DNA from: a virus
IMG/VR virus record: IMGVR_UViG_3300030060_005287
Coordinates: 1 to 41,109 of that record
DNA: 41,109 nt
Strand: one strand, 5' to 3'
Shown: positions 4,472-31,568 of the stretch, piece by piece
Numbering within the stretch: the stretch's first letter is position 1
Layout: each line of letters begins with the position of its first letter
Made by a program: the position numbers and the translations under genes
The notes under the pieces: model-generated
Databases searched by the model: none
The model's input: the letters and a program-made list of their open reading frames with translations, nothing else
Told to the model about the DNA's origin: nothing

Positions 4472-4478
4472 TTTTATT

Positions 4479-6277: not shown

Positions 6278-6278
6278 A

Positions 6279-8020: not shown

Positions 8021-8389
8021 ATGAAAGTTGAAGTATCAGACGGTGACTTGGTTGACAAGTACACTATAGTTAAAATTAAGAGTGAACGAGTTAAGGATGA
8101 AAGTAAGTTAACTAACATCAATAATGAGTTAGTATACCTACAGGAAATCTTAGAAAAGATGAACGTATCAGAACAACTCGTCACTGATCTTTATAATATC
8201 AACTGTATTATCTGGGAGATCGAAGACAAAATCCGAAAGAAAGAAAAGGATCAGGAGTTCGATGAAAGATTTATTCATCTAGCCAGATCGGTTTATATAA
8301 AAAATGATAAGAGAGCAGAGATTAAAAAGAAGATAAATCTAGAGACGAATAGTACTCTGGTTGAGGAGAAAGATTATGTCCAGTACTAG
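8021..8389 (+). CDS. DUF6165-like small protein
   Basis: 122 aa, highly charged and mostly helical. The start MKVEVSDGDLVDKYTIVKIK followed by a helix with SERVKDESKLTNINNE matches, from memory, small proteins of the DUF6165 type (KIEVS.GE.VDKLTIL.IK), which sit beside glycosyltransferases in bacterial and phage sugar clusters and have no known reaction. No catalytic motif, signal peptide or membrane segment is visible. GGAGG lies 6 nt before the ATG. The stop lies 14 bp inside the following SDR gene, so the two are coupled. I assign it no activity. Confidence 0.6.
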   Translation: MKVEVSDGDLVDKYTIVKIKSERVKDESKLTNINNELVYLQEILEKMNVSEQLVTDLYNINCIIWEIEDKIRKKEKDQEFDERFIHLARSVYIKNDKRAEIKKKINLETNSTLVEEKDYVQY

Positions 8390-9284
8390 AGCAATCGTAA
8401 CGGGTGGTGCAGGTTTCATTGGATCAAACATCGTAGATCGTTTGATTGGGATGGGATGGGAAGTCATTGTAATTGACAATGAATCTACAGATGCACATGA
8501 GCAGTTTTATTACAACGACAAGGCTGAATATTGGGACTACGATATATGTGATTATGAAAAAATAGAACCTCTATTCAGAGGGGTTGATTATGTTTTTCAT
8601 CTAGCAGCGGAAGCAAGAATTCAACCAGCAATTGAAAATCCTTTGCTTGCAGTGAAGACAAACTCACTAGGAACTTGCAGTGTTCTTCAAGCAGCAAGAG
8701 TCAATGGTGTGAAAAGAGTTGTATATTCTTCTACCTCTTCTGCCTACGGTTTCAATGATATACCGAGTGTAGAAACTATGAGAAAACAATGTCTCAATCC
8801 ATATTCAGTTTCCAAAACATCAGGCGAAGAACTTTGTGAAATGTATTATAATTTGTTTGGTTTAGAGACTGTCATGTTCAGATACTTTAATGTATATGGA
8901 GAAAGACAACCAACTAGGGGACAGTATGCTCCTGTCATTGGACTATTCCAAAAACAATACGAGGCAGACATACCGATGACAATAGTTGGTGATGGACTAC
9001 AACGAAGAGACTTTACTCATGTATCGGATGTAGTTGATGCTAATCTGAAAGCAGCATTGTCTACTAACGAAAAAGTATTAGGTGAACTGTTTAACATTGG
9101 AACTGGTAAAAACTATAACATACACGAATTGGTAAAGTTGTTTGTTGATGAACCCGTCGAAGGGAAAGACTTTGCTTATATTCCAGAGAGAATAGGGGAA
9201 GTAAGAGAGTCACTTTCCGATTGTAAAAAAGCAAAAGACTTGTTAGAATGGGAACCTGTTATTGATCTTGAAGATTGGATTTGA
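8376..9284 (+). CDS. NAD-dependent nucleotide-sugar epimerase/dehydratase (GalE-like extended SDR)
   Basis: 302 aa. The start ATG at 8376 is preferred over an in-frame TTG at 8361 because GAGGAG stands 8 nt upstream. Rossmann loop TGGAGFIGSN (residues 9-18), NAD-site HLAAEA (75-80), Ser in YSSTSSAYG (117-125), catalytic Y143-x3-K147 (NPYSVSK), and the substrate-binding FRYFNVYGERQ motif are all present, as in UDP-glucose 4-epimerase and UDP-GlcNAc 4-epimerase (WbpP) relatives. It would act on an NDP-sugar; 4-epimerisation or dehydration cannot be told apart here. Followed 2 bp later by the dehydrogenase gene. Confidence 0.88.
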   Translation: MSSTRAIVTGGAGFIGSNIVDRLIGMGWEVIVIDNESTDAHEQFYYNDKAEYWDYDICDYEKIEPLFRGVDYVFHLAAEARIQPAIENPLLAVKTNSLGTCSVLQAARVNGVKRVVYSSTSSAYGFNDIPSVETMRKQCLNPYSVSKTSGEELCEMYYNLFGLETVMFRYFNVYGERQPTRGQYAPVIGLFQKQYEADIPMTIVGDGLQRRDFTHVSDVVDANLKAALSTNEKVLGELFNIGTGKNYNIHELVKLFVDEPVEGKDFAYIPERIGEVRESLSDCKKAKDLLEWEPVIDLEDWI

Positions 9285-9286
9285 AA

Positions 9287-10198
9287 ATGAATAAAAATGG
9301 TATTGGTGTAGTTGGTAATGGTTTTGTTGGTGGTGCTATTGTAAGAGCATTCAATGAAAACTATGAAGTTAAGTTTTATGATAAAGATCCCAACAAGGGA
9401 AGAGATTCGTTCGAAGACACCATCTCGAATAGATTTGTCTTTGTGTGTTTACCAACTCCTATGATAGACGCAGAGGGTGGAAAGTCCAACATGAGTATCA
9501 TCGAGAACTTCTTTCAGGAAGTTGATAAGATTGATCCTCTTGCTAAGAATGATCCAGAGGGAACAATTTATATTATCAAGTCAACTGTTCCCGTTGGAAC
9601 AACTGAGAATCTTTGTAAGAGATATAGAACAACTAGAATCATGCACTCTCCGGAGTTCCTGAGAGCGAAGACTGCTGATATTGATTTCATCACCGCGTCA
9701 AGGCACATCGTCGGAGGATCAGCAGGAGTTCACTGTGATTACGGTCCAGCATCTTTTGTTTATGGAAATGCAGTTGCTGATTTGTACTCAGAAAGATTTC
9801 CCGGAGCAAATATTATAACTATGGATTGCACAGAGTCGGAGACCGTGAAATATGTTTGCAACACTTTCTTTGCGACTAAGATTATGTTCTTTAATGAGAT
9901 TAAACTCTTAGTTGATAAGTTGGGATTGAACTGGGAATCTATTACCGAGGGAGTCATGAGTGATGGACGAATCGGTTTGTCTTTCAATAATGTACCCGGA
10001 CATGATGGTGAGCCTGGATTTGGTGGATACTGTTTTCCTAAAGATATAAACTCTCTCATAAGTGTTATGGAAAATGAAGGAATTGATCCTATGGTTCTCA
10101 AGTCAGTCTGGGAGCAGAACAAAAACATCAGAAAAAAGTGGGACTGGATTGACTCGAAGTCTTCAGTTTTAGAAGAAAGTAAATCACATGATAGTTGA
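9287..10198 (+). CDS. UDP-glucose/GDP-mannose dehydrogenase-family protein, lacking the C-terminal domain
   Basis: 303 aa from ATG 9287 (an upstream in-frame TTG is less likely). NAD loop GVVGNGFVGGA (residues 7-17), VCLPTPM (53-59), KSTVPVGTT (98-106), SPEFLR (121-126) and the catalytic cysteine loop GFGGYCFPKD with C249 are all intact. These enzymes oxidise UDP-glucose, GDP-mannose or related sugars to uronic acids in two NAD steps. The usual proteins have 390-450 residues; this one ends about 50 residues after the catalytic Cys, so the C-terminal NDP-sugar binding domain is missing and no continuation is seen downstream. Either a separate partner supplies it or the reaction is altered. Overlaps the next gene by 11 bp. 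Confidence 0.85.
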   Translation: MNKNGIGVVGNGFVGGAIVRAFNENYEVKFYDKDPNKGRDSFEDTISNRFVFVCLPTPMIDAEGGKSNMSIIENFFQEVDKIDPLAKNDPEGTIYIIKSTVPVGTTENLCKRYRTTRIMHSPEFLRAKTADIDFITASRHIVGGSAGVHCDYGPASFVYGNAVADLYSERFPGANIITMDCTESETVKYVCNTFFATKIMFFNEIKLLVDKLGLNWESITEGVMSDGRIGLSFNNVPGHDGEPGFGGYCFPKDINSLISVMENEGIDPMVLKSVWEQNKNIRKKWDWIDSKSSVLEESKSHDS

Positions 10199-10808
10199 AT
10201 TTACAAAAGAAGGACAGATCAATAGAGGGACTCGAAGAGGAGAAACTCTTATACAACTCCTATCCGATCCCAGCATCAAACGAGTACTGGAGTCCGGAAC
10301 TTTCAACGGACAGGGATCAACCCGTCTTGTCTATGAAGAACTAAAGGACAGAGAGGATGCATATTTTCTTAGCCTAGAAACTGTTGACTGGTTATATGAA
10401 GAGTCGAAAGAACTATACAAGAACGTCCCGTGGATCGACATTCAAAGAAAAACTCTGGTGGGCCCAGAAGATATTCGCTTTGATGATTCACTAAAACAGT
10501 TTCTACAAGCACAAACGGGATGGACAGATGAAGACCTTCTCCGCGAAATTGAAGAGGAAAAGGAAAACGCATCTAATTGTGATAGACTAGATATTTCAAA
10601 GTGTCAATATGATCTTTGTATACTAGACGGTGGAGAATTTTTCGGATGGACAGAGTTTGCGAAGGTAGAAAAGAATACTAGATATGTGTATCTGGATGAT
10701 ATTTTCGTAAACAAAAATCACATTACATACAACTACTGTAAAGAAGAATACGAAGAGATCGTTTCTGGTAGAGAAGGTAATGGATTCGCAATATTTAAAT
10801 TGAGGTGA
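10188..10808 (+). CDS. Probable class I SAM-dependent methyltransferase-like protein
   Basis: 206 aa. The motif VLESGTFNGQGSTR (residues 34-47) fits the SAM-binding strand-loop of class I methyltransferases (E/D-x-G-x-x-x-G), DAYFLSLET resembles the following acidic strand, and YDLCILDGGEFFGW is placed like motif IV, ending with the strand RYVYLDDI. No signal peptide. The family methylates small molecules, sugars or proteins; in this operon O- or N-methylation of a sugar is the natural guess, but a glycan hydroxylase or other SAM-like fold cannot be excluded. It overlaps the dehydrogenase by 11 bp and is followed 3 bp later by the GT2-TPR gene. Confidence 0.55.
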   Translation: MIVEFTKEGQINRGTRRGETLIQLLSDPSIKRVLESGTFNGQGSTRLVYEELKDREDAYFLSLETVDWLYEESKELYKNVPWIDIQRKTLVGPEDIRFDDSLKQFLQAQTGWTDEDLLREIEEEKENASNCDRLDISKCQYDLCILDGGEFFGWTEFAKVEKNTRYVYLDDIFVNKNHITYNYCKEEYEEIVSGREGNGFAIFKLR

Positions 10809-10811
10809 TCA

Positions 10812-12134
10812 GTGAAAGTTAAGAAGATAGATAAACCCGCGTCGGTTACACTTTGCATGATTGTGAAGAACGAATCTCACGTTATCAAAAGATGTTTAGA
10901 GTCCATGCTTCCCTACATCGACAGGTATGATATTACAGATACGGGATCGACAGACGGAACACCGGAAATTATTAAAGAGTTCATGGATGAACATGAAGTT
11001 CCCGGAGAGGTATATCTTTCTGACTGGAAAGGTTTCGGAGACTCTGGTGATAAGATCGGTTCACGAACAGAGTCTTTGAGAAACTGTGATGGTAAAGCAG
11101 ACTATGCTTGGGTTATTGATGCAGATGATATGGTAACTGGAAATTTCAAATATCCACCAGTGATGGATCAAGACTCATACACCCTAAGAATCGGTAGAGG
11201 GGAAGACTTTACATGGTGGAGAAATCAGATATTTAAAACTGGTGTAGGTTGGCATTATGTTGGTGTTCTTCATGAATATGCAAATATACCAAAACCACCA
11301 GAAGAACATAAGATACTAAAAATTCTAGGTGAATATAAAATCGAAGCACGAACAGAAGGTGCGAGAAATGTAGGCATCACTACGGTAGAAAAGTATTCAC
11401 GGGATGCAGAACATCTAGAAGAAGCATTGAAGGATGAACCAGAAAACTCTAGATATCAATTCTATCTAGCACAAAGTTACTTTGATTCTCAGCAATATGA
11501 AAAATCTCTAGATGCATATAAGAAGAGGGCGGAGATGGGTGGATGGCCAGAAGAGGTGTTCTACTCTCTCTATAGAGTCGCAATGATTAAGGCTATATTG
11601 AATAGACCTTGGGAGGAGATTCATCAAGCATTTTTAGATTCATATGAGTCTCGTCCAGACAGAGCAGAACCGTTGTACCAGATTGCACGGTGTCTTCGTC
11701 AGATTCATAACAGACCTAAATTGGCATACATGTATGCAAAGATGGCACTCGACATTCCATACCCACAAGAAGACATTCTTTTCGTTCAGGACGATGTGTA
11801 CAAGTATGGTATCTTAGATGAGATAGGCGCTACTGCTTTCTATGCAGGTAAACCACATTTGGGATATCAGGCTTGTAAGAAACTGGTAGAGGAAAACCTA
11901 ATACCAGATGAACATTTACCAAGAGTATCTGAAAACCTAAAACAATATGAACAGGTTCTTATGCAAATTCACACGCAAGAAGCACAAGCAGAAATGCACA
12001 GAAAAATGGCAGAAGCGGAGTTGAAGAGAAAAGAGAAGGATAGGAAAAGAGAAGAGAAAAAAGAAAAGGCAGCACAACCAAAGAAGAGTACAAAAATATC
12101 TCCCAGAGCAGGTTACAAAAAGAAAAAGACATAA
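10812..12134 (+). CDS. GT2 glycosyltransferase fused to TPR repeats
   Basis: 440 aa with a GTG start preceded by GAGGTGAT. Residues about 9-160 are a GT-A domain: SVTLCMIVKNESHVIKRCL is the classic GT2 opening, TGSTDGT (43-49) follows, WVIDADD gives the metal-binding D-x-D. Next come TPR-like helices (SRYQFYLAQSYFDSQQYEKS and RAEPLYQIARCLRQI), then a C-terminal Lys/Glu/Arg-rich coiled tail. Bacteria and marine T4-like phages use GT2-TPR proteins of this type to modify glycans or glycoproteins; the TPR part usually binds protein, so a protein acceptor (for example a fibre) is plausible. It closes the sugar operon and is followed by fibre genes. Confidence 0.88.
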   Translation: MKVKKIDKPASVTLCMIVKNESHVIKRCLESMLPYIDRYDITDTGSTDGTPEIIKEFMDEHEVPGEVYLSDWKGFGDSGDKIGSRTESLRNCDGKADYAWVIDADDMVTGNFKYPPVMDQDSYTLRIGRGEDFTWWRNQIFKTGVGWHYVGVLHEYANIPKPPEEHKILKILGEYKIEARTEGARNVGITTVEKYSRDAEHLEEALKDEPENSRYQFYLAQSYFDSQQYEKSLDAYKKRAEMGGWPEEVFYSLYRVAMIKAILNRPWEEIHQAFLDSYESRPDRAEPLYQIARCLRQIHNRPKLAYMYAKMALDIPYPQEDILFVQDDVYKYGILDEIGATAFYAGKPHLGYQACKKLVEENLIPDEHLPRVSENLKQYEQVLMQIHTQEAQAEMHRKMAEAELKRKEKDRKREEKKEKAAQPKKSTKISPRAGYKKKKT

Positions 12135-12716: not shown

Positions 12717-13739
12717 ATGCGTGGCTTTAATGATTACTTCAATCCAACTAAAAAAGAAGTAGAAAAGGAATTTGACAAACAAGTCATAGTTCCAGAAACT
12801 TCGGTTCAACCAGAAGAACCCGAAAAAGTTATAACTGAAATTACTAATGTTATACAGGGGACTCCGGGAGAGCCTGGTTCAGTAGGTCCCCGTGGTAGAG
12901 ACGGACTTCCCGGACTACGAGGTCCTAAAGGTGAAAGAGGAGAGAAAGGCGAACCCGGAGAACAGGGTGTTAATGGTGAACAGGGGGAGAAGGGGGATCC
13001 CGGAGAACAAGGTGTTCAAGGACTTCCCGGTGAGAATGGTAAAGATGGAATTGATGGGAAGGACGGGAAAGATGGAATTGATGGAACCGATGGAATTAAT
13101 GGTAAAGATGGAATTGATGGTGCAGACGGTAAAGACGGAGTTGATGGCAAGGACGGAAGAGAAGGTAAAGACGGAGTTGATGGAGTCGATGGAAGAGACG
13201 GAGAGCGGGGGGAACAAGGAGTTGCTGGACCTGTGGGTGCAAAGGGTGAGAAGGGCGATAGAGGAGAAAGAGGTATCGATGGTGAAAAGGGAGAAGTCGG
13301 TCCCAAAGGAGATCCCGGTGAGGATGGAAAAGCACCAGTCGTCCGAGCAAAATTCCCTTTAAAATTAGAAGAGAATGGACTGATATCATTCGATCATAAA
13401 TCTTTAGATAAGTTATTGCAAGTGGGTGCTGGAAAACAAGGACCTGATTATGCAGCAGTGAATGATTGGCTAGCAGCGGCTGGTGGTGCTGTGGGTATTC
13501 AGAAAGATAAAGCACAACTTATAAAATCAGTTAATGATATAAACTTCTCGGGACAACAATTTACTGTTCAGAGAAAAGGTAAAAATATAGAACTCTCCAT
13601 AGATAATGTACCAAGAGTGTATGCATCTGAGAACGATCCTACTGGATTAACCGGCGCACAAGTAGGAGATTTTTGGTTTGAAGAAAACTCAGGAAAATTA
13701 TATGTTAGATATGAAGGTGCTTGGGTAGAACCGCAATAA
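12717..13739 (+). CDS. Collagen-like fibre protein
   Basis: 340 aa. Residues 1-47 form a short acidic/basic head with a PEEPEKVITEI helix. Residues 48-206 are 53 unbroken Gly-X-Y triplets, beginning GTPGEPGSVGPRG and passing through a block of G-K-D-G-I-D and G-D-G-V-D repeats with very low proline and then back to G-E-K/G-E-R-type triplets. Residues about 207-340 form a C-terminal non-repetitive domain with NDPTGLTGAQVGDFWFEE and a W-V-E-P-Q end, likely a trimerising or host-binding tip. Collagen-like trimers of this type occur in tail fibres of many phages. Charge pairs E/K and D/K, not hydroxyproline, would hold the triple helix. Located next to a large sugar operon. Confidence 0.88.
   Translation: MRGFNDYFNPTKKEVEKEFDKQVIVPETSVQPEEPEKVITEITNVIQGTPGEPGSVGPRGRDGLPGLRGPKGERGEKGEPGEQGVNGEQGEKGDPGEQGVQGLPGENGKDGIDGKDGKDGIDGTDGINGKDGIDGADGKDGVDGKDGREGKDGVDGVDGRDGERGEQGVAGPVGAKGEKGDRGERGIDGEKGEVGPKGDPGEDGKAPVVRAKFPLKLEENGLISFDHKSLDKLLQVGAGKQGPDYAAVNDWLAAAGGAVGIQKDKAQLIKSVNDINFSGQQFTVQRKGKNIELSIDNVPRVYASENDPTGLTGAQVGDFWFEENSGKLYVRYEGAWVEPQ
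12858..13334 (+). repeat. Gly-X-Y triplet repeat region of the collagen-like gene
   Basis: 477 bp coding for 53 successive G-X-Y triplets with no interruption. The central part is built from 9-bp units of type GG(A/T) AA(A/G) GA(T/C) and GG(A/T) ATT GAT, so the DNA is itself imperfectly repetitive and open to slippage-driven length change. Open frames on the other strand and in other frames here are shadows of this repeat. Confidence 0.9.
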
Positions 13740-13743
13740 ATAG
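13736..13743 (+). promoter_or_regulatory. Late-promoter-like octamer AATAAATA
   Basis: AATAAATA spans the stop codon of the collagen-like gene and ends 17 nt before the next fibre gene; AGAGGA follows as ribosome site. One base from the T4 late octamer. Because TAA-AT is common at stops in AT-rich DNA, chance is possible. Confidence 0.25.
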
Positions 13744-13760
13744 GGTAGAGGAAACAACAA

Positions 13761-15767
13761 ATGTCAAAGATTAATTTTCCAACCGGTCCAAATAATGGAG
13801 ACAAGTTTACCTTCTCTGGTAAGACTTGGAACTTCAACGGTGCAGCATGGGACAAAGTTTCTGCTGATGGTGATGTAGACTCTATTGCAACCGGAACTGG
13901 TGGTTATGTTGCATTCTATACTCCAGAGGGTGTTGCAGGATCTACCATCGGACCTGCTGCCGAGGTTCTGTTTTGGGATGACACAAACAATAGATTGGGT
14001 ATTGGTACTACAGGTCCTTCACAGGCTCTTGAAGTTGTAGGTGGTATCACTGCAAGCGGTCCATCAACTCTAAATGGATTTGGATTTAAAAATTTCGGAG
14101 TATTCGATGCTCCAGCCGGATTTAACCTTAAGTTGGGTACTGATGATATCCATGTTAAATTTCGTAACAGTGGATTTACAATAAACGACACTGGAAGTGA
14201 CATCAGTACAACAGTGCTGGGAAACACTGATGATCGTCTTCTAACTGTTAATGCTAGTACAGACAGAGTTGGTGTCGGTGTTGGAGCCCCACAAGACAAG
14301 TTTCATGTCAATGGTGGTATCACTGCGAGTGGTGGAGTGGTAGCCAGTGGTGCAACATTCAATGGTATTGTAAAAGCAAATCATCTAGTCCTACAAGAAG
14401 ACGGAACAATTTCAGTCCAAGATGACACCGAAGCAATGACGCTCAACTTCGGGGGTGGAGTTTTAGACATTAGTTCCACCGCTGTCGATATCGAGCAGAA
14501 ACTTAGACACAGAGGTGATCCTAATACCTATATCGATTTCACTGTAGACAACATTGAAATGTTTGCTGGGGACAATTCGTTCTTGGATTCCAACGGAACA
14601 AGGACAAATGTAGGGGGTGTCTCATTCGCAAATGGACTGGTTCAAGCACAAGGTATAACAGTTGGTGCGGGTGGGATTACGTTCGCAGATGGAACAACAC
14701 AAACAACTGCTTTCCGTGCAGGACTCAAGTATACCGTGACAGGAACTAGTTTATCCGATATACCACAACCAGGCGGAGTCGTGATGTCTTCAAACATCTC
14801 TGGAACCGCGATTGATATCCTTGGTATAAATGCAGAGGACGCAAATGGAAATAATATTGATTCGGTGCTTGACTTGTATGCCGCTAATGGTGGTTTAATA
14901 CAAATCTTGAAAGAAGATGGTTCTGAGTTAGTTATTGTCGCAACAGAGGCAGATGAACTATCAGAGGCATTAGTATCGTCCGATGGTTCGGGTGGAACTC
15001 GATTGACGGTGACGGAAACAAGTGGTATGGAAGTTGACACCACACCTTCTGTTGGTGATATCGTATATGTTTATGTCATTCCTAACCTAGTCAGTGCAGT
15101 CCAGACAATCGGTGGAGAACAAGGACACATTCAGATAGAAACTGCTTTTGGTTTGTCAATGGCGAACATAGCGAATGTTGGTTATCTGCGAGTGAATCCG
15201 CATCACCACTTCGATTTTCAGGGTGCAGAATTCAGTCAAACTTCTAACTTTGCTGAAGGGGTTACTATTGGGGGTGTCTTAGATGTCGCTTCATCAATTA
15301 GACACATAGGTGATTCAGACACTTTAGTAGGGTTCTCCACCAACAGAATAACTTTACAAGCAGGAGATACAACTTACCAAACCATAGGTTTGAATGACTG
15401 CACAGACTTCAATAGCACTGAGGTTCGTGAACCTAAGTTGAAGGATTACTCCGAGCATGTAAATGCTATAGGAACAGTTACAAGTAATACAGCAGTCAAC
15501 TTTGAGAACGGTAACGTACAAACGGTGACAATTGGTGGAAACTGTGAATTCAGTTTTAGCAATCCCCCAGCATCAGGGCAAGCGGGAACCATGACTCTAA
15601 TCATCACAAACGGAGGCGCACACACAACAACCTTTGCTTCCGCGATTAAATGGCCCGGTGACGTAGCACCAACCCTCACAACATCTGGTGTCGATGTCAT
15701 ATCATTCCTCACCACCGATGGAGGCACTAATATTTACGGATTCGTAGGTGGATTGAACTTCTCATGA
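13761..15767 (+). CDS. Long tail-fibre/structural protein
   Basis: 668 aa. The head INFPTGPNNGDKFTFSGKTW followed by NFNGAAWDKV is the small beta domain that begins many fibre and structural proteins of marine T4-like phages. Internal repeats are visible: NRLGIGTTGPSQALEVVGGI (78-97) against DRVGVGVGAPQDKFHVNGGI (168-187), and KLRHRGDPNTYIDF (247-260) against SIRHIGDSDTLVGF (about 510). The C-terminal domain has FSFSNPPASGQAGTMTLIIT and DVISFLTTDGGTNIYGFVGG, the usual fibre end in these phages. It overlaps the next Gly-rich gene by 4 bp (ATGA). Probably a shaft or distal subunit carrying the adhesin encoded next. Confidence 0.82.
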   Translation: MSKINFPTGPNNGDKFTFSGKTWNFNGAAWDKVSADGDVDSIATGTGGYVAFYTPEGVAGSTIGPAAEVLFWDDTNNRLGIGTTGPSQALEVVGGITASGPSTLNGFGFKNFGVFDAPAGFNLKLGTDDIHVKFRNSGFTINDTGSDISTTVLGNTDDRLLTVNASTDRVGVGVGAPQDKFHVNGGITASGGVVASGATFNGIVKANHLVLQEDGTISVQDDTEAMTLNFGGGVLDISSTAVDIEQKLRHRGDPNTYIDFTVDNIEMFAGDNSFLDSNGTRTNVGGVSFANGLVQAQGITVGAGGITFADGTTQTTAFRAGLKYTVTGTSLSDIPQPGGVVMSSNISGTAIDILGINAEDANGNNIDSVLDLYAANGGLIQILKEDGSELVIVATEADELSEALVSSDGSGGTRLTVTETSGMEVDTTPSVGDIVYVYVIPNLVSAVQTIGGEQGHIQIETAFGLSMANIANVGYLRVNPHHHFDFQGAEFSQTSNFAEGVTIGGVLDVASSIRHIGDSDTLVGFSTNRITLQAGDTTYQTIGLNDCTDFNSTEVREPKLKDYSEHVNAIGTVTSNTAVNFENGNVQTVTIGGNCEFSFSNPPASGQAGTMTLIITNGGAHTTTFASAIKWPGDVAPTLTTSGVDVISFLTTDGGTNIYGFVGGLNFS

Positions 15768-16504
15768 TTGGTGCATCAAAAGCGGCAACTACAAGATCAT
15801 ACCAAGTCCTATCGACCACTAATATTACATCGACAGGAACTCAAAACTATACAGTCCCTGCGGGAGTTGTTTATGCCGAAGTTGAATTATATGGAGCAGG
15901 AGGCGGCGGCGGCCAAGGAGGGAACCTTGCTGGTAAAGGTGGCAGCGGCACCAGTCATCGAGGAGGCGGCGGTGGCCACGGTGGTGCATATGTTAAACAC
16001 CAAATCAGAATTCCAGATTTACGAGAAGGTGATACTATAGTTTTTTCAGTTGGTACTGCCGGTGGTGCGGCCATCAACACATTAAACCGTGGTAGTAATG
16101 GGGGAAACACGCAACTCACCGTGCATAAAAGAGGTGACACCACAATCACCACATTTACTGATATTATTGCGGGCGGAGGTGGTGGTGGTAGAAGTTTTCA
16201 AACTGGCGGTGGAGTTGGATCCGCTGGATCGGCACAAGGTGGAAACTTATTAAATATAGATGGTGAACAGGCCGACGCTCGACTGACTGGAACGGGTGCG
16301 GCAGTGAATGGTACTAATGGTGGGGATGCAGGAGGACCAGACGGAGGAGCAGGCGGCGCTGCTGCTGCCGTTTCGTCAGGAGTCGGAAGTGTAGCACAAG
16401 GAGGTGTTGCTCCCGGAGGCGGAGGCGGAGGTGGTGCTTCGGATGTAGTCGAGAGTGGTGAAAATGGTGCTTCTGGGAAAGTAATTGTAAAAGCATACGG
16501 TTAA
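15764..16504 (+). CDS. Glycine-rich tail-fibre adhesin-like protein
   Basis: 246 aa. After a short N-terminal part ending TVPAGVVYAEVELYGAGGGG, the chain has several polyglycine stretches (GAGGGGGQGG, RGGGGGHGGAY, GGGGGGRSFQ, GGVAPGGGGGGGASD) separated by short variable loops, and ends GASGKVIVKAYG. This pattern recalls the polyglycine sandwich of receptor-recognising fibre tip proteins (gp38 type of T-even phages), where glycine helices pack and variable loops bind the receptor. The gp38 protein of T-even phages also follows a long fibre gene. Thus a host-recognition role is likely, although gp38 homology is not proven. In-frame Gly runs on the DNA (GGCGGCGGC) are slippage-prone. Confidence 0.75.
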   Translation: MIGASKAATTRSYQVLSTTNITSTGTQNYTVPAGVVYAEVELYGAGGGGGQGGNLAGKGGSGTSHRGGGGGHGGAYVKHQIRIPDLREGDTIVFSVGTAGGAAINTLNRGSNGGNTQLTVHKRGDTTITTFTDIIAGGGGGGRSFQTGGGVGSAGSAQGGNLLNIDGEQADARLTGTGAAVNGTNGGDAGGPDGGAGGAAAAVSSGVGSVAQGGVAPGGGGGGGASDVVESGENGASGKVIVKAYG

Positions 16505-20210: not shown

Positions 20211-21230
20211 ATGAGTGATTTTTTAAAGACGTTAATTAAAGACTCGGGAAATGAATATGCAGGAATTGCCTCAGACGGGATTGAAGGTTCTGATGTCACA
20301 GGTTTTATTGACACTGGCTCTTATGCTTTCAACGCTCTCCTCTCTGGTTCTTTGTATGGTGGTATACCAAACAATAAAATCATGGCGCTTGCAGGAGAGT
20401 CTGCTACTGGTAAAACTTATTTCGCACTTGGTATGTGTAAGAAATTCTTGGATGACAACCCAGACGGTGTTATCCTATATTTTGATACGGAACAAGCGAT
20501 TACCTCGGACATGATCTCACAGCGAGGAATGGATCCCGCTAGAGTAGCAGTGTTCCCCGTAGCAACTGTTGAATCATTCCGTCACCAAGCAATCAATATC
20601 GTTGACAAGTACATCGAAACAAAGGACAGTAAGCCTGTATTTGTTGTTCTTGATTCTCTTGGGATGCTTTCTACAGAAAAAGAAATGAACGACACCGCAG
20701 AAGGTAAGTCAACCCGTGACATGACACGCGCCCAAGTCATCAAGGCGACATTCCGTGTGCTTACTCTCAAGTTGGGTAAGGCAGGCATTCCGCTCATTAT
20801 GACAAACCATACTTACGATGTTGTCGGTGCATATGTTCCGATGAAGGAGATGGGTGGTGGTTCTGGTTTGAAGTACGCTGCATCTACGATTGTCTATCTT
20901 TCGAAGAAGAAGGACAAGGACGGGACAGATATCATTGGAAATATTATTCGATGTAAGTTGTTCAAGGGAAGGTTCACGAAAGAAAACAAAGAAGTTCAGG
21001 TCCAGTTGAATTATGACTCGGGGCTAAATCCATATTATGGTTTGGTTCCCATTGCAATTAAACACGGAGTCTTCAAGAAGGTGTCTACCCGAATTGAATT
21101 ACCGGATGGTAAAACTGCTTTCGAGAAGTCTATAAACAACGAACCCGAAAAGTATTTCACATCAGAGGTAATGGAAAAACTTGAACTAGCAGTGGCAAAA
21201 GAATTCAAATACGGAAGTGATGATGAGTAA
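20211..21230 (+). CDS. uvsX: UvsX recombinase (RecA family)
   Basis: 339 aa from ATG 20211, for which GGAG at 20201-20204 gives proper spacing; in-frame upstream TTG and ATG codons are too close. Walker A is [12 protein letters not shown] (residues 61-72), Walker B is [12 protein letters not shown] (142-153), with FDTEQAI (91-97) carrying the catalytic Glu and the GAGLKYAA-like stretch [11 protein letters not shown] corresponding to RecA loop L2 and its following strand. It forms filaments on single-stranded DNA and drives strand exchange for recombination-dependent replication. The 8-bp overlap with the next gene ties it to an O-fucosyltransferase-like protein, which is unusual in this module. 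Confidence 0.95.
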
Positions 21231-22335
21231 GAGGTTAATTTGGAAACTTCATACAGGAGGAATGTGTAATCAGTTTATGTCTATGGAAGTTGCAATAGGA
21301 GTTTCCAAGTGGACAAAACGAGATTTATTCATAGTGGATCCTATTAAGGCTATAAATCTAGGATCATACGGTCACTCGTCACCCGACAGTATGACAACTT
21401 TCGATATGTTCGATTATCCCGGAAAGTACAAAGTCCTTGATTCCTTTGATGATGTTAAAGAGATGGAGGGATCCAAGACATATTATTCTCAAGACATCAG
21501 TAATTCGGTTGCTTGTGTTGATAAAAAATATTATCGACACGATCCCGAGTTTCACCCTTCAGGGAAACTCGCATTAAAGTTTCAAGATAATTTTACGGAT
21601 AACATTATAATAAATAGACCTATTGAAAACCGGGATCGACAAATGGACACGGTAACAGATTATCGTAGGTTTTTTTATGGAAAAACTGACAGGTTGTTTA
21701 AGCATATTGAAAAATGTAAAGTTAAATCTCCTTATGTAAAACTCGCTAGAAAGATAGCAGACGATCTGGGAGTGTTCAATGCAGTACATATGAGGTTAGG
21801 TGACTGGACAAACTTCGCCTACAACACCAGAGGGATATATGTTACAGATGAAGATCGAATGCATTGGTTGAATGAAAAAATCAAACAATATAATATAGAT
21901 CAAAACAAAATTGTGTTATGTGTTAATTTGAGACGAGTGGATACACATAAGATTAATCCAATCAGAAAAGAACATCCCAACATTACCATTTTAGAACACT
22001 TCATAACTATGAACTACATTGAAGAATTAAATAAGTTACCAAAGTACAATCCGGTAATTTTAGGACTTCTTTGTAATATAGTTTGCTGGTATGCAGAGGA
22101 TTTCTGGGGGTGTTGTGGAAGCACATATACGAATTTTATTCATAGACATCGAGATGATACACCAAAGTATCATGACGTAGAGTATAATAGATTTGATATA
22201 AATCTATACGATACGACAAACGGATCTTTAGTAGACAGGGGACATGGTAAGTATATCTGGTCCCGGAAAGCAACTGGACATTTACCAACATGGTTTTTTG
22301 AAATGAAGGAGAATACAAATGAAATTTCAATTTAA
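21223..22335 (+). CDS. O-fucosyltransferase-like (POFUT/FUT8/NodZ superfamily) protein
   Basis: 370 aa from ATG 21223 (an in-frame GTG and ATG lie 3-6 nt earlier). The start [18 protein letters not shown] (5-22) resembles the G-G-x-x-N-Q nucleotide-sugar loop; [11 protein letters not shown] (185-195) has the H-x-R motif that binds GDP-fucose in GT23/GT65-type enzymes; [17 protein letters not shown] near 300 corresponds to the third motif (S-T-x-S...R). No signal peptide or membrane span, so it should act in the cytoplasm. The phage encodes Gmd, the first enzyme of GDP-fucose synthesis. It lies between uvsX and the gp41 helicase, away from other sugar genes, and the acceptor is unknown. Confidence 0.65.
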
Positions 22336-25816: not shown

Positions 25817-27784
25817 ATGAGTGAAGAGCGAACTGGTCTACCCAGTCTATATCAAGATTTTATTCATCTTTCAAGATATTCTAGGTGGATGGACGATAAA
25901 GGTAAAAGGGAAACGTGGGAAGAAACTGTAACCCGTTACTTTGATTTTTTCGTAGAACATCTAAGTGAAAACCATAATTATAAAGTATCAAAGAAAGATA
26001 GAGAAGAACTGCAAACAGCAGTTATAAATCTTGAGATTATGCCATCAATGAGAGCATTGATGACTGCGGGTGAGGCGCTAAAGAGGGATAATATTGCAGG
26101 ATATAATTGTTCCTTTGCGAGTGCAGGTAGAGTTCGTTCTTTTGATGAAATTCTTTATACTCTTATGTGTGGAACTGGTGTTGGGTTCAGTGTGGAAAGA
26201 GATTTCTTAGGTAAACTTGCGACGATTGCAGAGGAGTTCGAGGACAGTGATACGACGATTGTTGTCCAAGATAGTAAAATGGGTTGGGCAAAAGCCTACA
26301 GGGAACTTACATCCCTACTTATTGCAGGTCAGTCTCCGAAATGGGACTTATCTAAAATTAGGCCTGCGGGGGCAAGACTTAAAACTTTCGGAGGTCGTGC
26401 TTCTGGACCGGAGCCTTTGGATGATCTGTTTAGGTTCACAGTGGAAACCTATAAGAAGGCTTCTGGTAGAAAACTCAATTCCATTGAATGCCACGATCTC
26501 ATCTGCAAGATTGCAGAAATTGTCGTGGTGGGGGGAGTACGAAGAAGTGCCCTTATTTCCCTCTCGTCGCTCACGGACGAAAGAATGCGAGACGCGAAGA
26601 CGGGACAGTGGTGGATGTCAGATCCACAGAGAGCATTGTCAAACAACTCTGTTGCATACAAAGAAAAACCAGAGGTAGGAACATTTATGGAAGAATGGCT
26701 TTCCCTCTATAAGTCAAAGAGTGGTGAGCGTGGAATCTTCAACAGAGATGCTGCCAAGAATCAGATCCAACGAGCGAACGATTACAGAGAATCTCTCGGT
26801 GAAGATTACAGACAAAGAGAAGTCAATCATGACTTCGGAACAAATCCATGCAGTGAAATTATTCTTAGGGATAGAGAATTTTGTAATCTTACTGAAATTG
26901 TAGTCAGACGAGACGACACGCAAGAAGATCTACAAAGAAAAGTAAGACTAGCAACCATACTTGGAACGTGGCAGTCTACACTTACTAACTTCAAGTATCT
27001 GTCTAGTGAGTGGGCGAAGAACTGTGAGGATGAAAGACTTCTTGGTGTTTCAATGACGGGTATCATGGACAATCCATTAACAAACGGATCCAAGAAGGAT
27101 CTAGAATCTAGGCTGGAGAGTCTTAAGAAGTGTGCGATTGTAGAAAACAAGAAAGAGGCTGACAAGATTGGTATCAACTCTTCGGTATCAATTACATGCG
27201 TAAAACCATCCGGAACCGTGTCTCAACTTGTAGACGCTGCATCAGGGATCCACGCTCGTCACAATGACTATTACATTCGTACAGTTCGTGCAGACAATAA
27301 GGATCCTCTCTGTCAGTTTATGAAAGATGTAGGGTTCCCAAACGAAGCAGATGTAATGAAACCCGAACATGTAACTGTTTTCTCTTTTCCAATGAAGTCA
27401 CCCAAAGGTGCCGTTTGTAGAAAGGATATGACAGCAATTGAGCAGTTGGAATTGTGGTTGGTATATCAAAAGTATTGGTGTGAACATAAGCCATCTATTA
27501 CTATTACCGTAAAGGAAGATGAATGGTTTGAGGTGGGTGCGTGGGTATACTCTAATTTCAATGAAGTTTGTGGTGTATCTTTCCTACCTTTTTCAGATCA
27601 CAGTTACAAGCAAGCACCCTATCAAGATTGCACTGAAAGTGAATACAAGGAGGCTCTCAAGAAGATGCCTAACAACATAAAGTGGACAGATCTAAGCAGT
27701 TATGAAAAGGAAGACAACACTTCCGGAACTCAAACCCTCGCCTGTAGCGGTGGAAGTTGCGAAATTGTAGATCTAACCGGCTGA
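25817..27784 (+). CDS. nrdJ: Class II (B12-dependent) ribonucleotide reductase, monomeric type
   Basis: 655 aa, one chain, no small subunit gene nearby. Thiyl-radical cysteine C345 is in TNPCSEIILR, and the partner C356 in REFCNLTEI lies 11 residues later, as C408 and C419 do in the Lactobacillus enzyme. An N-terminal redox Cys is in AGYNCSF, KPSGTVSQL and GGVRRSALISL are typical of the monomeric class, and the C-terminal tail ACSGGSCEIVDLTG holds the disulphide pair that re-reduces the site. It turns ribonucleotides into deoxyribonucleotides using adenosylcobalamin, without oxygen or iron. AATAGGAG precedes ATG. T4 and the cyanophages I know carry class I NrdAB instead, so this choice says something about the host. 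Confidence 0.95.
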   Translation: MSEERTGLPSLYQDFIHLSRYSRWMDDKGKRETWEETVTRYFDFFVEHLSENHNYKVSKKDREELQTAVINLEIMPSMRALMTAGEALKRDNIAGYNCSFASAGRVRSFDEILYTLMCGTGVGFSVERDFLGKLATIAEEFEDSDTTIVVQDSKMGWAKAYRELTSLLIAGQSPKWDLSKIRPAGARLKTFGGRASGPEPLDDLFRFTVETYKKASGRKLNSIECHDLICKIAEIVVVGGVRRSALISLSSLTDERMRDAKTGQWWMSDPQRALSNNSVAYKEKPEVGTFMEEWLSLYKSKSGERGIFNRDAAKNQIQRANDYRESLGEDYRQREVNHDFGTNPCSEIILRDREFCNLTEIVVRRDDTQEDLQRKVRLATILGTWQSTLTNFKYLSSEWAKNCEDERLLGVSMTGIMDNPLTNGSKKDLESRLESLKKCAIVENKKEADKIGINSSVSITCVKPSGTVSQLVDAASGIHARHNDYYIRTVRADNKDPLCQFMKDVGFPNEADVMKPEHVTVFSFPMKSPKGAVCRKDMTAIEQLELWLVYQKYWCEHKPSITITVKEDEWFEVGAWVYSNFNEVCGVSFLPFSDHSYKQAPYQDCTESEYKEALKKMPNNIKWTDLSSYEKEDNTSGTQTLACSGGSCEIVDLTG

Positions 27785-27815: not shown

Positions 27816-27843
27816 TTGATATACCCAAATAGTTCTATATACT
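27816..27843 (+). promoter_or_regulatory. Host-type promoter before the porin operon
   Basis: TTGATA (27816-27821), 16-nt spacer, TATACT (27838-27843): five of six matches to each sigma-70 box. A start would fall at about 27850, just before a terminator-like hairpin at 27865, giving a short leader unless the polymerase reads through into the small gene at 27916 and the porin. Confidence 0.6.
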
Positions 27844-27864: not shown

Positions 27865-27892
27865 AGGGGGCGGAGTGCCCCCTTAATTTTTT
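27865..27892 (+). terminator. Rho-independent terminator after nrdJ / attenuator of porin operon
   Basis: AGGGGGC (27865-27871), loop GGAGT, GCCCCCT (27877-27883), TAA and six T (27887-27892). A strong, short hairpin that ends nrdJ transcription; because a promoter is placed just before it, it could also attenuate the porin transcript. Confidence 0.85.
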
Positions 27893-27915
27893 CGGTTCAA
27901 CACAAGGAGATAACT

Positions 27916-28125
27916 ATGAGTGGAACCAAAGCAAATTGTAACAAGTCAGAATGTCCTGTTACAGAAACGTGTGAAAAAGATTTTGTTCGTTGTACATTAT
28001 GCAAGTTGGGGGTTACTCGATCTACCCTCATCAGTCTTGCACTAGTACCATTCGCGTGGGATGGTGTTGTTTGGTTTAAAGATGCCATTCAGTGGGCATG
28101 GGATACCGTAAGCGGCCTCGGCTGA
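27916..28125 (+). CDS. Small Cys-rich protein with C-terminal membrane segment, unknown
   Basis: 69 aa with a clear AAGGAG before its ATG. The N-terminal half has five cysteines (C8, C13, C19, C26, C29) that include C-T-L-C, possibly a metal site or disulphides. The second half is hydrophobic with several Trp (STLISLALVPFAWDGVVW), a likely membrane segment, followed by an amphipathic helix. It starts 24 bp after the terminator and ends 22 bp before the porin ATG, so it belongs to the porin operon. Function unknown; it could act on the inner membrane during lysis or porin export. Confidence 0.6.
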   Translation: MSGTKANCNKSECPVTETCEKDFVRCTLCKLGVTRSTLISLALVPFAWDGVVWFKDAIQWAWDTVSGLG

Positions 28126-28147
28126 TCTTATGAAAAGGAGAACTACT

Positions 28148-29239
28148 ATGAATAACACAAAGTCAAAGTGGTTTAAGTACGGTATTCTTGGTATTGTCAG
28201 TCTAGTCTTTGGTGTTGCAGTTGACGCAGCAACCGCAGACGAAAACTGGTCAATCGAAGAGGAACGACGTACACAGACGAAACTTCTTGTAGAAGAGGTT
28301 CTCGCGGATGCAAACACTAGAGTCAGTCTAGGTGCAGCGGATTCACCCGTTACCCTTGACGTTTCTGGTTTTGTACAGACTCGTTTCTCGTATAACAGTG
28401 GTGGTAGTGTAGAGGCAAATCACGGATTTGATGTACCTCGCGCCCGCCTCCAGTTTTCTGGCAGCGTGTATGATTTTGATTACGTTGTTAGTGGACAGTG
28501 GTATGATAACAACGGTGGTGAATTTGATCTCACTGATGCATTCGCATCGACTGATATCGCCGGTGTTAACTTTAAGTTTGGACAGTTTGTAAGTCCATTC
28601 ATGAAGTCTTGGGACGTTTATGCAGCAGATACTCTGACTGCGGATCGATCCCTCGTCACTTATACCTTTGGACAGGGACGCTCGCAGGGTATCCAATTCG
28701 GTAAGGAATTTGGAGATCTCCGTCTAAGAGCCTCTTATAATGATGGATTCAATAGTGCAAACGGAGCCGGTGTACAGAACGGCTATGCTCTCAATGCAAG
28801 AGCGGATTATGATGTTGCAGATTGGATGAGTGTTGGTGGTGCTATTTCATGGAATGATCTAGACACTACTGATTTCTGGACTTATACGGTTGACGCCGGA
28901 TTTGTGTTCGGTGGATTTAATTTCGACGCAGCATATGTCGGAAGAAACAGAGATGCTGGTAATGACTGGGCTACCCAGTTCCAAGCGTCTCTCTTCGTCT
29001 CTGATGAAGTTCAACCATTTGCTCGTTATGAGTATGGTTCTCTTCCCGGTGAGGAAGATTTGAGTCTTGTTACCGCAGGTTTCAACTATTATTTCAACGA
29101 TAATGTTAAGTGGACTACTGACGTAGGCTACTCACTTAACGGTATCGGTGTAGGTTGGGACACTGAAAGCACTGGCTGGAACTCCAGCGTGGATAGTGGT
29201 GAATACCTAGTCCGCACTCAAATTCAAATTCGCTTCTGA
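28148..29239 (+). CDS. Outer-membrane porin, OprO/OprP-like
   Basis: 363 aa from the ATG at 28148 (AAAGGAG 6-9 nt upstream; an in-frame ATG at 28130 lies before the SD). A Sec signal peptide is clear: KSKWFKYG, hydrophobic ILGIVSLVFGVAV, then DAATA before DENW. A charged helix (EEERRTQTKLLVEEVLADAN) precedes VTLDVSGFVQTRFSYNSGG, HGFDVPRARLQFSG and YDFDYVVSGQW, the start of the phosphate-selective porin (OprO/OprP) beta-barrel, and later amphipathic strands alternate as expected. The last residues QIQIRF end in Phe, the BAM recognition signal. It would allow small anions or other solutes through the host outer membrane; specificity for phosphate is not proven. A porin in a phage genome is rare. 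Confidence 0.88.
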   Translation: MNNTKSKWFKYGILGIVSLVFGVAVDAATADENWSIEEERRTQTKLLVEEVLADANTRVSLGAADSPVTLDVSGFVQTRFSYNSGGSVEANHGFDVPRARLQFSGSVYDFDYVVSGQWYDNNGGEFDLTDAFASTDIAGVNFKFGQFVSPFMKSWDVYAADTLTADRSLVTYTFGQGRSQGIQFGKEFGDLRLRASYNDGFNSANGAGVQNGYALNARADYDVADWMSVGGAISWNDLDTTDFWTYTVDAGFVFGGFNFDAAYVGRNRDAGNDWATQFQASLFVSDEVQPFARYEYGSLPGEEDLSLVTAGFNYYFNDNVKWTTDVGYSLNGIGVGWDTESTGWNSSVDSGEYLVRTQIQIRF

Positions 29240-29339: not shown

Positions 29340-30044
29340 ATGTTACTGAAACGCCTAGTATTAGCGGTAGTTTCGTTATGTTTAAGCGGATGTTCTGTAG
29401 GAACTGTACATCATAATGAATTTGTTGAAACAGTTCCTGCACCACAATACTTCTACACCACCGAAGAATACGATCCATATCCATCAGTCGGATCAATTAT
29501 CACCGAAGAGGGTGATTTGATTGGATCTGGTGTATTGATAGAATCTGATAAATTATTAACCGCAGCACATGTAGTAGAGAGAGATATAATCTATTACTTT
29601 GATATAGGTGATGAACTTATATTAATAGAACGGGTTCTGATCCATAAAAATTATATAAACACAAAGAATGATATCGCAATAGCATTTCTTAGTTGTGACA
29701 GTTCAGTTAAACCAACTACGCTTATCGACTCAGACGATATTTTGAAAAGAAGAATGCCTTTGGTGACTGTGGGATTTAGTAGAGGCTATAAGAAGTATAG
29801 TGATCCTAAAACATTTTCATATTTTGGTAGTCTTGTGGAGGAACCCGGACACATAAAATTTCTACCACTCCGTGCTACCATCTGGTTTGGTGACTCTGGG
29901 GGTGGTGTATTTGCATATCTAGACGGAGAAATAAAACTAGTAGGAATCATGTCATACTTCGCTGTGGACGATGGACTAGTCTGTGAAAATTCTGCTATAA
30001 ATGTAAAATATTATAGGGATTGGATAGATGAAAACTTGGAATAA
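29340..30044 (+). CDS. Lipoprotein trypsin-like (S1) serine protease
   Basis: 234 aa. The N-terminus KRLVLAVVSLCLSGCSVG is a lipoprotein signal peptide with lipobox L-S-G-C18. The catalytic triad of the trypsin fold is complete: H77 in LLTAAHVV, D111 in TKNDIAIAFL and S186 in FGDSGGGVF, with ITEEGDLIGSGVLIES as the opening strands. Residues after S186 (KLVGIMSYF) fit the next strand. The lipid-modified Cys should anchor it in a membrane, probably on the periplasmic side of the outer membrane, since S19 after Cys gives no inner-membrane retention Asp. Proteolysis of host envelope or phage fibre proteins is inferred, target unknown. No SD; a TATACATA octamer stands 8 nt upstream. Confidence 0.85.
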   Translation: MLLKRLVLAVVSLCLSGCSVGTVHHNEFVETVPAPQYFYTTEEYDPYPSVGSIITEEGDLIGSGVLIESDKLLTAAHVVERDIIYYFDIGDELILIERVLIHKNYINTKNDIAIAFLSCDSSVKPTTLIDSDDILKRRMPLVTVGFSRGYKKYSDPKTFSYFGSLVEEPGHIKFLPLRATIWFGDSGGGVFAYLDGEIKLVGIMSYFAVDDGLVCENSAINVKYYRDWIDENLE

Positions 30045-30066: not shown

Positions 30067-30630
30067 ATGATAATAGCAGGCATTGATTATTCCATGACAA
30101 GTCCAAGCATATGTGTTTACGCTTCAAAGAAGTCGGAAAGTTTTTCTTTCAGTAAATGTAAGTTATATTTTCTAACTGATACGAAGAAATATAGTGGTAC
30201 GTTTAAGAACGTAGTTGGTAAGAACTTTAACGAATGGAACGAAGACACCGAAAGATTTAAGAGTATATCCGATTGGGCGATTGATGTTCTCAATTATGTC
30301 GAGCAAGTTGGACTAGAAGGATATTCGTATAACTCTACTGGTAAAGTTTTCCATATAGCAGAGAACACAGGTATCCTCAAGTATAAGTTATATGAAGACG
30401 GGACACCATATGAAGTTTATTCTCCGTCTGCAATTAAGAAGTTTGCAACCGGAAAGGGTAACGCAGACAAAGAACTTATGTACAAGTCTTTTGTAGAAGA
30501 TACTAAAGTAGATTTGATGGAACTACTTGATTGTAAACAATCAAAGATAGGAAACCCAGTGAGTGATATTGTGGACTCTTATTATGTGTGCAAGAAACTA
30601 TATTCAGAGTATAGATCTAAATCTTCTTGA
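30067..30630 (+). CDS. RuvC-like Holliday-junction resolvase (RNase H fold)
   Basis: 187 aa from ATG 30067 (AGAGGAG upstream; the in-frame ATG at 30028 lies inside the protease gene). The motif IIAGIDYSMTSPSICVY (2-18) carries D7, the first acid of RuvC/RNase H enzymes; VGLEGYSY (81-88) gives E84; SPSAIKKFATGKGNADKELM (119-138) matches the RuvC helix (P-x-x-V/I-K...TG-x-G-x-A-x-K); and NPVSDIVDSYYV (163-174) gives D167 and D170 as last acids. It would cut branched DNA before packaging, a job done by gp49 in T4. Its 3' end overlaps the convergent lipoprotein gene by 14 bp. Confidence 0.8.
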   Translation: MIIAGIDYSMTSPSICVYASKKSESFSFSKCKLYFLTDTKKYSGTFKNVVGKNFNEWNEDTERFKSISDWAIDVLNYVEQVGLEGYSYNSTGKVFHIAENTGILKYKLYEDGTPYEVYSPSAIKKFATGKGNADKELMYKSFVEDTKVDLMELLDCKQSKIGNPVSDIVDSYYVCKKLYSEYRSKSS

Positions 30631-31498
30631 ATCCATTTTTGATTTTGATATGAGATATTATTTTTTTGGTAAGAGAACTAGTAACCTTACCAGCATATCC
30701 ACCCACACCAAATACTTCTTTTCTCTCTTCGGGTGATAGTCTAATTTTCATCTCTTCGACTAACTGGACTATCTCTTTGATTGCTTCCTTGTCGTTTCTT
30801 CCGTCGATAAGCATCCATCCCACCACACCAAGTGAAGCAACAATACCAACAATCAATACAATGAGTCCAACCGTAGCAATCTCTTCGAGATAGAACTGAG
30901 ACGCTGCTGCAAACCCAACGGTGAGGACACCAATAGCGAGAACAATACCACCCAGTTTTCCACTAACCCAGAACGTGAGAAAAGCACCACCAATGAGCAT
31001 GGCAAATCCTGCTACAAAAAACAAAGTTATAAAACTGTGTAGGTTCTGAAGTGCCTCTTTACGAACTTCTCTATCAGATTCTTCGTAGTCTTGGACTAAA
31101 TCTTCTAAGTCCTTGATTTGTCCAATTGCCGCAGCCACCCTTGAGTTCGCGGATTCTAAATCCTCTAGAGCCTCTTCTATTCTTATTTGTTCTTTCTCCG
31201 CATCGTCCACATGCTCCTTGATCGATTCTGCGTTGTTTTCGATGCTGTCCAGCAAGGGATCGTTTTGATTTGGGGAAAGTGCTATCCCATCTAAAATAGA
31301 GTCTGCTTCCTCGTTGATGCTGTTCAGAGTCCCTGAGATCGCTCCTGAAGCGTCTGTGATCTCTTCTGTCTGCTCTTTCTGTTCTCGTACACTGTCCACT
31401 ACGGTGGATGAGGTGTTCTCTGGGGACGATGTTATGTCTTGAAAACTTTCGCATCCTACCATCGTTAGCAACAATGTGCCTATTATTATCTCTTTCAT
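30617..31498 (-). CDS. Membrane lipoprotein with coiled coil and several transmembrane segments
   Basis: 293 aa from the ATG at 31498 (GGAGG about 9 nt upstream). The start KEIIIGTLLLTMVGCESF is a signal peptide with a lipobox-like M-V-G-C16. Residues about 40-140 are Glu/Gln-rich heptads (EKEQIRIEEALEDLESANSR and following), a probable coiled coil. Three or so hydrophobic segments follow (FITLFFVAGFAMLIGGAFL, GGIVLAIGVLTVGFAAA, TVGLIVLIVGIVASLGVVGW). The tail is soluble and basic. A lipoprotein plus multiple membrane spans is unusual, and the weak lipobox means that the N-terminus might instead be a plain anchor. Spanin-like or superinfection roles are possible; no family recognised. Confidence 0.6.
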   Translation of the reverse strand: MKEIIIGTLLLTMVGCESFQDITSSPENTSSTVVDSVREQKEQTEEITDASGAISGTLNSINEEADSILDGIALSPNQNDPLLDSIENNAESIKEHVDDAEKEQIRIEEALEDLESANSRVAAAIGQIKDLEDLVQDYEESDREVRKEALQNLHSFITLFFVAGFAMLIGGAFLTFWVSGKLGGIVLAIGVLTVGFAAASQFYLEEIATVGLIVLIVGIVASLGVVGWMLIDGRNDKEAIKEIVQLVEEMKIRLSPEERKEVFGVGGYAGKVTSSLTKKIISHIKIKNGFKKI

Positions 31499-31568
31499 CA
31501 GGGGGATCCTCCATTGCAAAGGCAGAACTACTTACTGCCAAGCATAGTAAACTTATAATTTTAATCAT
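31074..31568 (-). CDS. Possible secreted protein whose signal peptide precedes and overlaps the lipoprotein gene
   Basis: Starting at 31568, 3 nt after the upstream stop, an ATG opens a clear Sec signal peptide (IKIISLLCLAVSSSAFA, cleavage after A-F-A) in the otherwise empty 73 bp before the lipoprotein ATG. The frame then runs on for about 140 codons, out of frame with the lipoprotein gene and very Arg-rich, as shadows are. Either only the leader is functional, or there is a true overlapping secreted protein, or a frame change joins it to another frame. SD is weak (TTAGGGG touching the ATG). Confidence 0.3.
   Translation of the reverse strand: MIKIISLLCLAVSSSAFAMEDPPDERDNNRHIVANDGRMRKFSRHNIVPREHLIHRSGQCTRTERADRRDHRRFRSDLRDSEQHQRGSRLYFRWDSTFPKSKRSLAGQHRKQRRIDQGACGRCGERTNKNRRGSRGFRIRELKGGCGNWTNQGLRRFSPRLRRI

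Follow-up and report, generated by a model that had tools for sequence, protein, structure and literature searches.

The gene at positions 28148 to 29239 of the window, by which we mean the whole stretch of 41,109 nucleotides analyzed here, almost certainly encodes a phage porin. It lies with a gene for a small protein in a cassette headed by a candidate early promoter and a structured leader, and we tentatively propose that this cassette serves to remodel the outer membrane of the host. The features on which the argument draws are the following.

27816-27843 (+): sigma-70-type promoter, TTGATA-N16-TATACT, 10/12 consensus positions
27865-27893 (+): leader hairpin AGGGGGC-GGAGT-GCCCCCT followed by TTAATTTTTT, terminator- or attenuator-like, between promoter and small ORF
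27916-28125 (+): first cassette gene, small protein of 69 aa with a Cys pair near the N-terminus and one hydrophobic segment, SLALVPFAWDGVVW
28133-28147 (+): Shine-Dalgarno region of the porin, AAAAGGAGAACTACT, from the sequence and comparison with close homologues
28148-29239 (+): outer-membrane porin, 363 aa, from the intact ORF, Pfam, AlphaFold2, alignment and tree
Parts of the porin (residues): signal sequence, about 1-28; periplasmic helix, 34-62; 16-stranded barrel, 68-363; constriction loop L3, 149-177
29271-29299 (+): intrinsic terminator AACCTCCC-TTCG-GGGAGGTT-GTTTTTTT, 3' of the porin, from the sequence
29340-30044 (+): trypsin-like lipoprotein with lipobox LSGC and intact His/Asp/Ser motifs (Pfam Trypsin, 42.5 bits), not necessarily part of the cassette

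Gene and predicted structure of the porin

The reading frame of 363 codons is intact. A longer call starting at 28130 is mechanically possible and was judged unlikely; we prefer the start at 28148 because AAAAGGAGAACTACT directly precedes it, and close homologues start at the equivalent position. The protein matches Pfam Porin_4 (PF13609) with 40.1 bits against a cut-off of 27 and gave no match to Porin_O_P (PF07396), a family that is matched by 5/15 phage homologues and by 17/27 sequences of the wider set. Searches against PHROG gave no match, nor did NCBIfam for the window copy, one homologue matching ExtI weakly.

The AlphaFold2 model, whose pLDDT was 71 with 15 phage sequences as input and 80.6 with 27, contains 16 strands (from residues 68-84 through 353-362), and most blocks of the barrel reach a pLDDT of 85-96. 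A charged helix (residues 34-62) precedes the barrel, and a segment of 29 residues with short helices (149-177) is placed between strands 5 and 6, the position of L3 in general porins. The terminal Phe, F363, is invariant among 27 aligned homologues, and the signal peptide was judged by eye from the sequence. The first-pass annotation had described the signal peptide, the charged helix, the barrel strands and the terminal Phe as intact, and it was right on each of them; as modeled, the protein thus combines the signal sequence, 16 strands, L3 and C-terminal aromatic residue that mark the general porins of Gram-negative bacteria.

The same annotation had assigned the porin to the OprO/OprP type, which the comparison of folds bears out. 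Indeed, OprP (Z 28.0, rmsd 3.1, 294 residues) and OprO (Z 27.6) head the structural ranking of the model by VIA-align, followed by PorB (Z 25), and the porin profile aligns with OprP by hhalign in global mode at 98.7% (E 2.7e-15). Since neither the single protein nor the profile retrieved a porin from the PDB by sequence, the kinship with OprP is argued from the fold and from this direct profile alignment. Based on the model, we suggest that the gene encodes a functional 16-stranded barrel of the broad Porin_O_P/OprP fold, which would presumably assemble as a trimer.

A locus of T4-like phages and its origin

The source record is a viral contig of 41 kb, in which the porin is surrounded by genes for UvsX, a DnaB-like helicase, primase, ThyX, a B12-dependent ribonucleotide reductase (NrdJ), a T4-type DNA polymerase and a RuvC-like resolvase. 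Two other viral contigs have the same gene order, with porins 95% and 85% identical to that of the window, and 17 further contigs carry relatives at 50-63% identity. The first alignment scan, made with near-identical sequences, had only found the same two contigs again, and it was a planctomycete-like probe that then opened the family; a scan with an alignment of phage sequences alone gave 35 porin loci. All 15 viral records searched hold the porin, as a single copy in 14 and as two neighboring pieces in the remaining one (G013), where the gene at C1:2754-3822 is in two reading frames, reflecting a frameshift or a sequencing error. One of the carriers is G003, a nearly complete T4-like genome of 157 kb whose ends are nearly identical (about 161 bases repeated with few mismatches). 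This genome contains the T4-type major head protein, portal, large terminase and sheath, so that the T4-like complement comprises UvsX, the DnaB-like helicase and the T4-type polymerase in the window and the structural genes in G003. By UvsX, the nearest named phages are Pelagibacter phage HTVC008M and Methylophilales phage Melnitz. The claim that few phages carry a complete porin needs some qualification: 50,697 annotated phages gave no match to this porin by tblastn, nor did plasmids, but dozens of uncultivated viral contigs carry relatives, and BFVD lists phage porins unrelated to that of the window.

Several other regions of the window deserve mention in their own right. A run of about 14 genes at 192-12134, many of them glycan- or sugar-nucleotide-like (GDP-mannose dehydratase, NTP transferase with sugar isomerase, epimerase, glycosyltransferase-like), is possibly a surface- or tail-glycan island of the phage, and genes with collagen-like GXY stretches at 12717-16504 probably encode tail-fibre proteins. 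A fucosyltransferase-like gene (21217-22335) within the replication module is replaced or strongly diverged in a related contig (L002, 34%). Two ribonucleotide reductases of about 28% identity share one place in related phages (25817-27784 in the window; L007, L008 and L011). On the minus strand, the product of the gene at 30617-31519 has a lipoprotein signal that leads into a coiled coil and several hydrophobic stretches, an unusual architecture that is perhaps related to lysis.

The order NrdJ, small ORF, porin, (trypsin-like lipoprotein), RuvC is conserved in independent viral contigs, and the trypsin-like lipoprotein is conserved nearby in many relatives. Because the same locus recurs in independent contigs and the porin is present in 15 viral records, we exclude host contamination and an assembly chimera, against which the first-pass annotation had cautioned. 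That the porin is a decoy or passenger, either a host gene (moron) captured recently and bringing little benefit or host sequence that entered the contig by binning or misassembly, is barely credible. The local GC content (0.455) is slightly above that of the window (0.39), as such a reading would have it, yet far under that of the bacterial relatives checked (0.56-0.68), and the locus is repeated in independent assemblies. Furthermore, the phage porins form a clade of their own on a long stem, and the dN/dS values, 0.08-0.12 when the window and its two close relatives are compared and 0.16-0.31 within a second group, are far below 1 and show purifying selection on the gene.

The small ORF and the porin appear to travel as a pair between phages, independently of the helicase, because their distances between phages agree (r 0.88) while helicase identities diverge. 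Porins of L015 and L017 are 86% identical and their helicases only 65%; conversely, L011 and L013 have helicases that are 95% identical and porins that are 67% identical. A natural empty site is found in L110 (14482-19754), where NrdJ, the trypsin-like gene and RuvC follow one another without small ORF and porin; the whole record of 44.5 kb contains no porin match. The helicase tree, in which the deep branches are unresolved, would fit either a single gain or several losses of the cassette.

The first-pass annotation had looked to phylogeny for the donor. The scan of bacterial genomes yielded 15 porin relatives, all from Planctomycetota and mostly from Phycisphaerales, with a query that included the planctomycete-like probe, which biases the sample towards this phylum, and with patterns that also permitted phage residues. 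The nearest cellular sequences found (Planctomycetota, Phycisphaerales) are 27-36% identical over the porin. Matches to the porin family occur in 124 of 392 Planctomycetota genomes, at 2-11 in each of eight genomes. A tree of 41 sequences groups the 14 phage porins in a single clade (support 100/100) on a stem of 0.71 changes per column. As the simplest reading of these sequences, the porin was most likely acquired once, long ago, from a Planctomycetota-type host. The present host is probably also a member of the Planctomycetota, as judged solely from the kinship of the porin and with a probe partly biased towards the phylum. A spacer-style DNA search of 400 genomes from one Planctomycetota order gave short, probably low-complexity matches and an unrelated phage contig in a MAG, and a literature search on phage-encoded porins and planctomycete phages returned, under the terms used, nothing relevant and no isolated Planctomycetota phage.

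Predicted pore, small partner and probable expression of the cassette

In OprP, phosphate is bound by D94, Y62, S124, S125, K121, K126, R34 and R133, complemented by an arginine ladder (PMC5877670). Only one of these eight residues, R133 (R167 in the window porin), is kept in the hhalign alignment; Y62, K121, S124, S125, K126 and R34 are not conserved, D94 falls outside the alignment, and the loop region that bears the ladder in OprP is deleted. Apart from R133, the site residues and ladder of an OprP-type phosphate-selective channel were thus not found in the window porin, and the mature protein is strongly acidic (21 K+R versus 47 D+E). Taken together, the lost site, the deleted ladder region and the acidic charge make specific phosphate uptake unlikely, which weakens the suggestion of the first-pass annotation that the porin raises the uptake of phosphate or another anion; the porin may still take up solutes in general. 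Apart from L3, there are seven external loops, whose summed length is 60-64 residues in 14 phage porins versus 76-160 in 12 bacterial relatives, two ranges that do not overlap, while L3 measures 29 residues in all of them, its sequence being only partially conserved. Because the outer loops of the phage porins are trimmed to short turns and the constriction loop is kept, we think that the protein would act as a general pore; the short loops could also reflect mere economy of the phage genome.

A broader version of the uptake proposal holds that the porin raises the permeability of the outer membrane to phosphate, other anions or general solutes and so supplies the making of phage DNA where nutrients in the ocean are scarce. 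In its favor, OprP and OprO rank first by structure, the length of the pore loop is kept, the genome also encodes NrdJ and ThyX for nucleotide synthesis, and the early-type promoter described below is consistent with it. We nevertheless consider this function somewhat doubtful, given the near-complete loss of the phosphate site and ladder and the excess of acidic residues, and given that the eight Planctomycetota genomes mentioned above already have several family matches each.

By itself, the promoter of the window is weak evidence, since a score of 10/12 is reached by chance in about 5% of 300-base stretches (for stretches drawn at random from these loci, the score of the best site has a median of 8.7 and a 95th percentile of 10.0), and our argument is therefore based on the series of 33 homologous cassettes, in which the promoter scores 11-12/12 in 27, 10/12 in five and 9/12 in one. 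The T4-type late motif TATAAATA was found in none of these 33 cassettes; in G003, it lies just 5' of several structural genes, such as the portal gene, its total count not being above chance. From these sequences we infer that the cassette would be transcribed early by the host RNA polymerase. Downstream of the promoter, the leader hairpin (27865-27883) with a U-rich run on its 3' side resembles a terminator and may be an attenuator or a 5' stabilizer. Homologous leaders have hairpins with the same GGAG loop, and in relatives the leader RNA upstream of the cassette comprises three covarying hairpins, the first with the GGAG loop (L009:2838-2957, L015:7290-7403, L229:5860-5994 and others); among ten relatives, both sides changed in 6 of 15 predicted pairs. 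An Rfam search of the window gave no match. Similar GC-rich leader hairpins with U runs were seen in L007, L008 and L195.

The first-pass annotation had overlooked the small ORF, which is presumably transcribed together with the porin, as well as the promoter, leader and terminator, the spread of the porin over several phages and its probable origin in Planctomycetota. In nearly all related phages, the small ORF and the porin are immediate neighbors. The product of the small ORF has relatives of 57-69 aa, mostly with two cysteines on the N-terminal side and a hydrophobic segment, an alignment of 13 sequences contains 20 invariant positions, and PHROG, Pfam and NCBIfam gave no match. Among 77 loci with the small ORF, the porin is found within the stretch covered around the small ORF in 44, a protein of 256 aa in 18, both in none and neither in 15. 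The 256-aa protein (L197:6182-6949, L248:1934-2701 and L237:1699-2469, for example) occupies the place of the porin beside the small ORF; it has a signal sequence and a C-terminal Phe, matches no Pfam family and is only weakly similar to the porin profile (hhalign 84%); we regard it as a putative barrel. In phages of another type (L245 and L256, around 5400-6200), the small ORF adjoins genes for a coiled-coil/TM protein and a lipoprotein, both of them lysis-like. The small protein may have a different role, because no barrel is found within 6 kb at 15 loci, some of them beside lysis-like genes.

Such neighbors raise the question of lysis, in which the small protein would be holin-like or an accessory factor and the outer membrane would be weakened with the help of the porin or barrel, and the trypsin-like lipoprotein and the coiled-coil/TM lipoprotein near the window cassette could be read in the same way. 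We consider this improbable, since the promoter is of an early type without the late motif, an intact porin architecture under purifying selection is unlikely to be a lysin, and a terminator separates the window cassette from the next gene.

Our working hypothesis, which we hold tentatively and favor over uptake and lysis, is that the cassette brings about an early remodeling of the outer membrane by a loop-poor replacement porin, through receptor evasion or superinfection exclusion. After DNA entry, the host RNA polymerase would transcribe the cassette from the sigma-70-type promoter, and the porin would be exported, assembled as a trimer by BAM and inserted into the host outer membrane. There it would remodel or replace the host porin population with permeability retained, the loss of exposed loops removing receptors used by rival phages, and the small protein might assist at the envelope. 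With so little of its surface exposed, such a pore would suit a replacement porin that is of no use to other phages as a receptor; receptor replacement, the other function offered by the first-pass annotation, is plausible and slightly favored by the trimmed outer loops and the early-type promoter. The wider proposal, rather unlikely as it stands, is that a small membrane peptide and interchangeable barrels (the loop-poor porin or the 256-aa barrel-like protein) constitute a dedicated outer-membrane remodeling system, expressed early via a structured leader and exchanged as a unit among T4-like phages.

Comparison with known systems

What is known of phages controlling the outer membrane of their hosts comes mainly from temperate phages of enterobacteria. 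The Lc porin of the lambdoid phage PA-2 and the NmpC porin of a defective E. coli prophage are phage-borne porins that change the porin set of the host and can exclude phages using the replaced receptor. Lc and NmpC come from such temperate phages and are of the OmpC/OmpF type, whereas the carrier described here is T4-like, gives no sign of lysogeny and has its porin gene paired with that of a small protein in one cassette. Superinfection-exclusion proteins such as T5 Llp are early phage proteins that block receptors in the host outer membrane; those of the Llp type are small receptor-binding lipoproteins, whereas the window protein is predicted to be a pore. If our reading is true, the porin, its small partner and the early-type promoter, kept by many marine T4-like phages, would allow superinfection exclusion and changes of permeability driven by viruses to be tested in the open ocean, with Planctomycetota as the probable host phylum. 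The phage porin could also provide a natural loop-trimmed scaffold and mark the host of viral contigs that are uncultivated.

OprP and OprO of Pseudomonas aeruginosa (PDB 2o4v, the chain identical to the OprP sequence used here, and 4rjw; PF07396) share with the window porin the 16-stranded barrel and the folded-in L3; the window porin differs in lacking the ladder loop and all of the phosphate site except R133, in its strongly acidic charge and in its own Pfam match, to PF13609 only. The multicopy porins of Planctomycetota (Phycisphaerales) have in common with the phage porins the N-terminal VLADADxR, the L3 of 29 residues and the C-terminal Phe, but they are larger (396-513 aa), their external loops and turn T4 both being longer, and the phage porins form a separate clade. 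The phage porins in BFVD (Siphoviridae sp. ctBLh2 'Phosphate-selective porin O and P' and uncultured Caudovirales 'OmpC') are also predicted to have porin folds, but the two best matches are 11-13% identical to the window porin, with no detectable sequence kinship and no known cassette. As the BFVD entries and PA-2 Lc illustrate, phage-borne porins as such are already known; new, as far as we searched, are the phage-specific clade, its probable origin in Planctomycetota, the small partner, the two exchangeable barrels and the early-type promoter with its structured leader.
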